Of a stretch of 40,311 nt of DNA, positions 37,472 to 40,311 are shown piece by piece. The position numbers and the translations under genes were made by a program. Position 1 is the first letter of the stretch. Every line of letters starts with the position of its first letter. The notes beneath the pieces were generated by a model that worked only from the letters and a program-made list of their open reading frames with translations, did not search any database and was not told the origin of the DNA. This DNA is from Coriobacteriia bacterium (lineage in GTDB: Bacteria; Actinomycetota; Coriobacteriia; Anaerosomatales; PALSA-660): positions 1 to 40,311 of the forward strand of contig JANYKZ010000074.1 of NCBI GenBank assembly GCA_025361505.1, written 5' to 3'.

Positions 37472-37494
37472 TCGAACATGAGGAGATGACCGAG

Positions 37495-38211
37495 ATGTCC
37501 GACGATGACTTCGCGCTCGACACGGGTGAGACCGGCGAGCGGCCGGAGGACTTCAGCGCCGAGGATGAGGCGATGCTCGAGGACGACTTCGTTGACGTGG
37601 ACATCATGGAGGCTTCGATGACCGCGTTCGCAAGCGTGAGCTGCGACGAGTTCAGCGCGCGGGCAAGCGCGATCGCCAGCGCCTCCGTGTCCGGTGACGC
37701 CGAGATCACAGCGTCGGTGGTCGCCGCACTGAGTACCGAGAGCGTCGCGATGCGGCAGAGCGGCGCCGTCGCGATGGTCGTGTCGGGCGACGCGGCGATC
37801 TCGCAGAGCGCAGCCCAGGTGGTCGTGGCGAGGCACGTCGAGCTCGAGAGCACGGGGGCCTGCGTGGTGGTGGCCGGCGACGCGGCGGTGGCGCGCAGCT
37901 GGGTCGGTTTCATGGCTGCTCGCAACGCCGAGATCTCGGACGACTCGCGCGTCATCATCGACACGCGGGCCGGGCTGATCATCGGAGGCCTGCTCTTCGG
38001 AGGCCTCGGCCTGCTGGCCGTCGCGGTCTACCTGGGCGCTCGCCGGATCTCCGAGCGCATGCCGCATCTCCCCCACCTCCCCGGGATGCGTCCGATGCAC
38101 GGACACGCTCACCCGCATCGGCCCGGCATGCCCGCCATGCCCGATCTCTCCAAGCTGTCCGAGTTCCCACAGGTCGCGGAGATGATCGCGAAGCTGCGGC
38201 GCGCCGGATAG
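37495..38211 (+). CDS. Solenoid-like single-pass membrane protein with acidic head and His/Pro-rich tail
   Basis: Protein of 238 residues, not recognised. The N-terminus is very acidic ([18 protein letters not shown]). From about residue 45 to 150 runs a pattern of Ser/Ala/Val/Gly strands repeating about every 16-19 residues, as in [20 protein letters not shown] and [20 protein letters not shown], which suggests a small beta-solenoid, as in bactofilin-like or other strand-helix proteins. A hydrophobic helix [20 protein letters not shown] follows, then a tail with [20 protein letters not shown], and a helical end [23 protein letters not shown] 37495 is chosen because AGGAG lies 9 nt before it; ATG 37486 is directly against that site. 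The His cluster may bind metal. It is transcribed away from arcC and converges on the ECF gene. Confidence 0.75.
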
Positions 38212-38280: not shown

Positions 38281-40254
38281 TCACCGAGCGACGACGAGGC
38301 CGTCCTCGATGCGCACCGTGCGATCGGCCCAGCCGGACGCCACCCGGGGATCGTGGGTGACGACCACGACGGCAGTCCCGGCCACGCGACGCCGCTCGAC
38401 CGCGGCCAGTGCGAGCGCCGTCGTCGGCTCGTCCAGCGCGGTGGTCGGCTCGTCCAGGAACAGGACCTGCGGCTCCGTCACCAACGCGGAGGCAAGTGCC
38501 ACCAGCTGACGTGTCGATCGCGACAGCTCGTGCGGATGCGTCGACGCGTGGCGCGACAGACCGAGTTCGGCCATGACGGCGTCGACGCGTGCGGAGTTCT
38601 CGTCGGGCGATACGCCGCGGATCTTCAGCGCCCATCCGATCTCGTCGTCCACGCGCGGGTTGAAGATCTGGTCGTCGGGGTCCTGGAACAGCAGCGCCGC
38701 GCGCCGCGAGACGCCCTGCGGACCGAGCCGCGAGGGAGCCTCGCCACGGAGCAGGACCGTGCCGCTTTCGGGAGTGAGCAGCCCGACGCACAGCCTGAGC
38801 GCGGTGGTCTTGCCGGCGCCGTTCCTCCCGAGCAGCGCAACGGTCTCCCCCTCGCGGACCGACATCGACAGGCAGTCGACTCCTCCACCCTGCGGATAGC
38901 GGAAGCGCACGGAATCCAGGGCGAGTACCACGGCGCCCGGCACGACATCGAGCCGATCGCCCCGCTGCACGGCGGCCAGTGCCGATGCGGCGTCGACCAC
39001 CGTGCCGTCGGACAGGCCGACCCTCGTGTCACAGGTGGCGGCCAGGTCCCGGGACCTCGTGGCGAGCAGGACCGCGCGCCCGCCGTCCGCGAACGCGCGC
39101 AACCGGGCGATCACGTCCGCCGCGCCCTCCGCGTCCAGCTGCTCGAGCGGCTCGTCGAGCAGCAGCGCGGCCGGAGCCGTCGCCAGGGCCGCCGCGAGCG
39201 CGACGCGCTGGCGCTCCCCTCCCGACAGCGTCCTCAGCGGGCGCTCGGCGAGGTGACCCACACCCGAGGAGGTCAACGCGGCGAGCGCCGCGATCTCGGC
39301 CGGCTCCCGCCTCAGGCCCCGACACTCGAACGAGAAGCCGACCTCCGCGATCGGCGTCTCGAACAGGTGGACCCCCGGGTTCTGCAGTGTGATGGCCGCG
39401 AACGGGCGACCCGCCGAGTGCGCCTGACCGCCCACGAGCGCGCTGCCGCGCACGAAGCCGGAGGGCGTCTCGGGAGGGTCACCCGCCAGGCACGCGAGCA
39501 GGGTCGACTTGCCGGACCCGCTGCCGCCTACGATCGCGGTCATCGAACCGGCAGGCGCCACCAGGTCGACGTCCATCAGACTCCACGTCGCGGACCCGCG
39601 GTACGCGAAGCCGAACCCCCGCGCCTCGACACCCACTCCGCCCTCGTCCGGCAGGGTCTCGCCGGCCGGCGGGGTCGGCCGCTCGTAGCCGCGCGCGAGC
39701 AGAAGGAGCGACATCTGCTCCGCGCGTGTCAGCGCCTTGACCACGACCGGGATGAGCACCTGCGTGTAGGCGCGGACCTTGGTGGCGAGCCCGGGACCGA
39801 TCGGCATCCCGCGCACCTGCTGAGCCTCGAGCGTGACGGTCATCTGCTCGCTCAGGATCGGCGTCACGGTGAACGCCATCGAGACCATCAGACCGAGATC
39901 GCGGTTGCGCTCGCGCGTCCAGCGCACGAGTTCCGGCGTCGGCGTCGCGAGCAGGAAGATGTTCGCCACGGTCAGGAAGCACAGCAGCCGCAACGCGGTG
40001 GCGGTCCCGTAGGTCAGGCCCTCGACGCCGAACCAGCCGACCCAGTGGACGTTCGCCGGGTTGGCCCAACCATGTATCAGGATCATCGATGCGACGATCG
40101 GCAGGACCGGGACCGCTCTCCGAGCCAGGGCCCGCACGTCGACGCGGGTCACAGCGGCGAGGACCGCGAGCGCGACCAGCAGGGCTGCAAGCCACACGAC
40201 GGACTGGAGCGCCACGCTGATCACGATCCCGGCGAGCACGGCCAGGAGCCGCAT
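38281..40254 (-). CDS. Fused ECF transporter module: EcfT plus two EcfA ATPase domains (start possibly beyond the right edge)
   Basis: One polypeptide with the parts normally made by three genes. Residues 1-190 are EcfT-like with several membrane helices, the coupling motifs QVRGM (146-150) and LLARGYE (186-191), and a stretch LVRWTRERNRDLG. The first ATPase (about 206-430) has GGSGSGKST (243-251), Q291, LSGGE (343-347), LLLDEP (364-369) with Glu368, but ATRSRD where the switch His belongs. The second (445-657) has GRNGAGKTT (476-484), Q524, LSRST in place of LSGGQ (577-581), FLDEPTTALD and THD with His634. The frame stays open upstream of the ATG at 40254 to the end of the window, and the usual EcfT start lies further out, so the true start is probably to the right. 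No EcfS is visible. Confidence 0.85.
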   Translation of the reverse strand: MRLLAVLAGIVISVALQSVVWLAALLVALAVLAAVTRVDVRALARRAVPVLPIVASMILIHGWANPANVHWVGWFGVEGLTYGTATALRLLCFLTVANIFLLATPTPELVRWTRERNRDLGLMVSMAFTVTPILSEQMTVTLEAQQVRGMPIGPGLATKVRAYTQVLIPVVVKALTRAEQMSLLLLARGYERPTPPAGETLPDEGGVGVEARGFGFAYRGSATWSLMDVDLVAPAGSMTAIVGGSGSGKSTLLACLAGDPPETPSGFVRGSALVGGQAHSAGRPFAAITLQNPGVHLFETPIAEVGFSFECRGLRREPAEIAALAALTSSGVGHLAERPLRTLSGGERQRVALAAALATAPAALLLDEPLEQLDAEGAADVIARLRAFADGGRAVLLATRSRDLAATCDTRVGLSDGTVVDAASALAAVQRGDRLDVVPGAVVLALDSVRFRYPQGGGVDCLSMSVREGETVALLGRNGAGKTTALRLCVGLLTPESGTVLLRGEAPSRLGPQGVSRRAALLFQDPDDQIFNPRVDDEIGWALKIRGVSPDENSARVDAVMAELGLSRHASTHPHELSRSTRQLVALASALVTEPQVLFLDEPTTALDEPTTALALAAVERRRVAGTAVVVVTHDPRVASGWADRTVRIEDGLVVAR

Positions 40255-40311
40255 CCCGATCCGGAGTCCGGGCGCACGCTCGGGGCCGGGCGCGCTCGGC
40301 GCCCGGCCCCG

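Follow-up and report, generated by a model that had tools for sequence, protein, structure and literature searches.

A fused gene at the end of a 40,311-nucleotide contig of a Coriobacteriia bacterium (assembly GCA_025361505.1, contig JANYKZ010000074.1; the entire contig, analysed at its full length, is called the window) encodes an EcfT domain and two EcfA-type ATPase domains (NBD1 and NBD2) in a single polypeptide. It probably constitutes the complete one-chain motor (T + A + A') of an ECF importer of the vitamin type, in which one composite nucleotide site (site 2) hydrolyses ATP and the other (site 1), altered both in its H-loop and in the signature that completes it, holds ATP.

Domain organization and composite ATP sites

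By domain content and gene context, the protein is assigned to the ECF modules. The original prediction, made from the DNA sequence, that EcfT and both ATPases are fused was confirmed by a CbiQ match (PF02361) and two ABC_tran matches (PF00005) within 657 residues; the ATPase stretches also matched the cbiO profile TIGR01166 above its cut-off, and ECF_ATPase_1/2 below their own cut-offs. The features and their positions are listed in Table 1. The reading frame is still open at the contig end (position 40311), and two orthologues (loci L005 and L006) carry about 28 extra residues ahead of the first Met of the window protein; as the window stops at the contig end, the protein is N-terminally incomplete and the S-component gene expected upstream is missing. 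The latter was not found elsewhere in the assembly. Two X-Arg-X-type motifs, as described for EcfT (PMC10368641), were found by sequence at the predicted ends of the EcfT coupling helices, with the contacts themselves being unreliable in the structural model. On the opposite side, the fused gene is adjoined by an open reading frame of 241 residues (window 37486-38208, + strand) with no Pfam or NCBIfam match, which is conserved beside the ECF gene in L006 (7048-7767, - strand).

Table 1. Positions of the fused ECF module, its domains and motifs (window numbering), and of a neighbouring gene in related loci
Feature	Position	Strand	Residues	Remarks
EcfT-EcfA-EcfA fused ECF module	38281..40254	-	657 aa	counted from first Met in window
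EcfT (CbiQ) domain	39655..40254	-	1-200	PF02361 at 4-192, E 1.4e-15, above cut-off; helical in model
VRG, X-Arg-X-type motif	39808..39816	-	147-149	end of predicted coupling helix 118-147
ARG, second X-Arg-X-type motif	39688..39696	-	187-189	end of predicted helix 156-188
NBD1	38998..39621	-	212-419	ABC_tran (PF00005)
NBD1 Walker A GGSGSGKST	39502..39528	-	243-251	site 1, intact
NBD1 signature LSGGE	39214..39228	-	343-347	intact, serves site 2
NBD1 catalytic Glu	39151..39153	-	368	site 1, retained
Arg at NBD1 H-loop His position	39055..39057	-	400	site 1, altered
NBD2	38296..38922	-	445-653	ABC_tran (PF00005)
NBD2 Walker A GRNGAGKTT	38803..38829	-	476-484	site 2, intact
LSRST replacing LSGGQ in NBD2	38512..38526	-	577-581	serves site 1, both Gly altered
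NBD2 catalytic Glu	38449..38451	-	602	site 2; FLDEP starts at residue 599
NBD2 H-loop His	38353..38355	-	634	site 2, intact
PF04463-like gene	L005:3668-4189	-		below cut-off
PF04463-like gene	L006:3706-4230	-		below cut-off
PF04463-like gene	L140:7887-8498	+
PF04463-like gene	L142:3253-3840	-

In an ABC-type ATP site, one domain contributes Walker A/B, the Q-loop and the H-loop, and its partner the signature (PMC12422388, PMC12038006). Site 1 thus combines the Walker A/B motifs of NBD1 with the signature of NBD2, and site 2 those of NBD2 with the signature of NBD1, the respective Q-loop glutamines being Gln291 and Gln524. The predicted motifs, a good signature but an H-loop Arg in NBD1, and an H-loop His but LSRST in NBD2, are all present; the numbering of Glu368 was right, and the second catalytic Glu, left unnumbered earlier, is Glu602. 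With NBD1 pairing head-to-tail with NBD2, Arg400 and LSRST both fall into site 1 and site 2 is complete, so that motif positions and site arithmetic support the claim of one complete and one degenerate site with the defects together. The likeness to asymmetric exporters that had been drawn from this holds in part: signature and H-loop defects share one composite site, but the replacement of the catalytic Glu, which is frequent in the degenerate sites of exporters, was not found, Glu being kept in both domains.

Fused orthologues, unfused relatives and neighbouring genes

Among the genomes searched, the T-A-A fusion was found in three only: that of the window, L005/L084 (62%) and L006/L085 (80%). 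L005 has Arg in the NBD1 H-loop and LSRSV in NBD2; L006 has LSRST in NBD2 and no His at the NBD1 H-loop in either frame. A frameshift lies exactly at this H-loop (L006:6200-6260, with the same sequence in L085 and L091) and separates T-NBD1 from NBD2; it may be an assembly error in the MAG, or real. At 62-80% identity, Walker A, Walker B, the Q-loop and every site 2 motif are preserved among the fused orthologues. Some genomes of the window's family lack the module.

Within the same order, the nearest relatives from other families are unfused; their gene order is S-T-(A-A), their NBD1 H-loop has Arg, and their NBD2 carries ITASQ or ITASE. In two genomes reached via a Clostridia locus, a tandem A-A gene comes after the T gene, beside an S-component above the CD3073-family cut-off, and these tandems combine an NBD1 H-loop Arg with LPYSL in NBD2. 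In a tree calculated without the motif columns, the unfused relatives with Arg group with the window protein at an SH-aLRT of 99. No close homologue with an intact His or signature, as would speak against the prediction, was found. The Arg400/LSRST pattern is not due to chance, as the other fused orthologues, and relatives without the fusion, depart from the consensus at these very residues. In the remaining ECF ATPases read from the genome of the window, the His is retained; one of them, on contig C45, has LSEGQ.

An S-component gene (PF12822) lies directly upstream of the fused gene in L005 and L006. The S-components of the two orthologous loci reach 158 and 170 bits against NF045596 (CD3073 family), for which the cut-off is 180; this cut-off is exceeded by the S-component in four Clostridia-side genomes, two of which carry a tandem of the Arg type. 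A literature search returned no paper naming CD3073, and NF045596 itself states no substrate. Beside the S-component gene, and divergent from it, the orthologous loci examined carry a gene weakly similar to 2-thiouracil desulfurase (PF04463), which may hint at the substrate. In CD3073-type modules of Bacillota (L344-L352, with A genes separate or fused), the second signature is mostly without the fourth-position Gly (LGLAQ, LNFSE, LSFSL, LSFPL, LSLSD and LPYSL, the first three noted in separate-A modules).

Survey of tandem ECF ATPases

With the original prediction, a survey of fused proteins for the same pairing had been proposed. It was carried out on 187 distinct ECF ATPases of the tandem type, which came from Bacillota, Coriobacteriia and further Actinomycetota as well as one archaeal phylum, and it bore the prediction out. 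The matches were drawn by a profile with the pattern in about half its rows; as the search profile thus already contained the pattern, the following counts give a direction, not population rates. A signature starting with LSGG is present in NBD1 of 175 and in NBD2 of 25 of the 187 tandems (12 and 162 departing, respectively). The H-loop His is found in all 187 NBD2 but in only 119 NBD1, where it is replaced by Gln (63) or Arg (5). The Q-loop Gln is retained in 163 NBD1 and 186 NBD2, and the catalytic Glu of Walker B in every one of the 187 tandems, in both domains. All 68 losses of the H-loop His are thus in NBD1, and 67 of these 68 tandems have an altered NBD2 signature (Fisher test, p 5e-5, ignoring kinship of the sequences). 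His, Q-loop and signature losses all fall in the same composite site.

For some tandems, site 1 is degraded in three motifs, with NBD1 having lost both the Q-loop Gln (Asp/Gly) and the H-loop His (Gln) and NBD2 carrying LSRGE, MSRGE, LGNGE, LTKGE or LSKGE as signature; these are archaeal (L304, L306-L309, L312, L314, L318, L319, L324) or from Bacillota (L280, L287, L303).

On a tree of 127 rows with the motif columns removed, parsimony yields eight changes for loss of the H-loop His in NBD1 and none in NBD2; for loss of the fourth-position signature Gly it yields none in NBD1 and three in NBD2. As deep branches are weakly supported, the eight His changes are an estimate, and the at least four separate clades with His loss in NBD1 are the safer figure. 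Unfused neighbouring A genes with the same pairing were found in L015, L176, L179, L268 and L298, so fusion is not the cause of the asymmetry. In the canonical EcfA1/EcfA2 pairs sampled as a control, LSGG is present on both sides in 29 of 29, with a single His loss. Judged from these motif patterns, the one-sided asymmetry is a more widespread feature of dedicated ECF ATPase pairs, whether or not they are fused, rather than one confined to proteins that include T.

Structural model

The fused protein was modelled with AlphaFold2 using an alignment of 45 rows (window and related loci), and the closeness of the model to an ATP-closed state was judged by fold matches to PDB entries. At a pLDDT of 81.6 and a pTM of 0.72, both NBDs are mostly well modelled and the T domain is largely poor, with pLDDT below 50 at residues 105-130 and 176-194, which include stretches of the coupling helices. 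No tandem ECF ATPase was among the best PDB sequence matches. The best PDB match of the model is ATP-bound DppD (8wdb_D; TMt 0.75 over 501 columns), with apo DppD (8wd9_D) at 0.64; outward-facing, NBD-dimerised ABCB1 scored about 0.56 on the query, as against about 0.29-0.36 for many entries in an inward-facing state. In the model, the NBD arrangement is thus most like a closed head-to-tail pair within one chain, which is compatible with the pairing on which the site assignment relies. Closed-like NBD packing is, however, a common AlphaFold default and weak evidence when taken alone.

Proposed mechanism and alternatives

In the canonical ECF cycle (PMC10368641), the dimer closes once both ATPases have bound ATP; the ends of the coupling helices are thereby drawn towards each other and the S-component is expelled. 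For the fused motor, which would work with the S-component encoded directly upstream, we propose that NBD1 and NBD2 pair head-to-tail inside one chain. Site 2 (NBD2 Walker A/B and Q-loop, His634, and the LSGGE of NBD1) would be the consensus site and hydrolyse ATP; site 1 would bind ATP via its intact Walker A and Glu368, with slow or no hydrolysis because it has lost the gamma-phosphate contacts that an H-loop His and a consensus partner signature would make. With ATP at both sites, the dimer would close, the ends of the EcfT coupling helices would be drawn towards each other and the S-component would be expelled; the dimer would then be reopened by hydrolysis at site 2 only, the ATP of site 1 staying in place. 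We infer this retention of ATP at site 1, the single hydrolysis per cycle and the coupling.

The main alternative, which we regard as unlikely, is that site 1 is altered but catalytic, its Glu368 allowing slower or regulated hydrolysis so that both sites turn over. Since Glu368 is retained, site 1 may indeed still hydrolyse ATP slowly. The invariance of the catalytic Glu across the surveyed tandems, unlike in MsRv1273c (PMC12038006), favours this reading, as do the many relatives in which only one signature Gly is altered (LSxGQ) and the His is kept. It also agrees with canonical ECF motors needing both catalytic Glu: in L. delbrueckii ECF-CbrT, a Glu-to-Gln exchange in just one ATPase subunit, whichever of the two, is enough to impair uptake-dependent growth severely (PMC10368641). 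Against it, the window's group has lost the His, both signature Gly and the trans contacts (LSRST, ITASQ, LPYSL), and some other groups are also without the Q-loop Gln.

It is very improbable that the ATPase domains instead pair between two T-A-A chains, as NBD1:NBD1' plus NBD2:NBD2' or as NBD1:NBD2', in which case the deduced sites would not be the real ones. Homodimeric CbiO ATPases do exist (5x40), and the linker between the matched NBD1 and NBD2 domains is short, with about 25 residues. Yet same-type pairing would put one defect into each site, whereas in evolution all defects have repeatedly come to lie in a single heterotypic site; the relatives have one T gene for each tandem ATPase, and the single-chain model is already in a closed arrangement. 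An NBD1:NBD2' swap would moreover leave the site assignment as it is.

Least probable of all is a decaying, pseudogene-like module with motif losses by drift, to which the frameshift in the 80% orthologue and the patchy presence within the family could be taken to point: this reading was set aside, as the reading frame of the window gene is unbroken and the pattern conserved, with the nucleotide-binding and site 2 motifs preserved in the orthologues, the same pattern retained in a different phylum next to an S-component of probably the same family, and the frameshift possibly an assembly error.

Comparison with known systems

With canonical group II ECF transporters (EcfA1/EcfA2/EcfT, e.g. of L. 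delbrueckii; PMC10368641, PMC4820897), the fused motor shares the EcfT/CbiQ scaffold, two EcfA-type ATPases, the X-Arg-X-type EcfT motifs and a predicted S-component partner; however, these have separate subunits and two consensus sites and need both Glu in vivo, whereas the window encodes one chain with one degraded site. The dedicated tandem A-A ATPases of Actinomycetota, Bacillota and archaea likewise have two EcfA domains per chain, a mostly altered NBD2 signature and, in several clades, an altered NBD1 His; in these T is a separate neighbouring gene, whereas the window protein includes T and has lost both signature Gly.

Among asymmetric exporters, TAP1/TAP2 has the same layout, its consensus site being formed by the Walker motifs of TAP2 and the signature of TAP1 (PMC12422388), and in both TAP1/TAP2 and MsRv1273c/72c (PMC12038006) the defects are gathered opposite the consensus site, as in the window; the degenerate site of MsRv1273c has Asp497 and Gln528 (switch region). 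These exporters have another membrane fold, and their degenerate site is often without the catalytic Glu, whereas the window protein belongs to an ECF importer and keeps it; because Glu is retained in both domains, the comparison is only partial. OppD/DppD of M. tuberculosis (8j5q, 8wdb) also carry two NBDs in one chain, but are Type I peptide importers, and in the OppD alignment neither a signature nor an H-loop His is altered, unlike in the window.

Implications

The fused motor would thus resemble an asymmetric ABC transporter in its working, without the Glu replacement frequent in exporters. A limited literature search found no paper describing degenerate ATP sites in ECF transporters. For the family at large, we consider it an evenly balanced proposition that dedicated bacterial and archaeal ECF modules repeatedly evolved single-hydrolysis motors, with site 1 degenerating in several independent events, in every case on the same side and without loss of its Glu, in parallel to asymmetric exporters and in contrast to the shared group II systems, which need both sites. 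At stake is how much ATP is spent per substrate and how labour is divided between the ECF ATPases, and a family in which one chosen site would be disabled, in one polypeptide of fixed stoichiometry, makes this question directly testable. The pattern suggests convergent evolution of importers towards the design with one good site that TAP-like exporters have.
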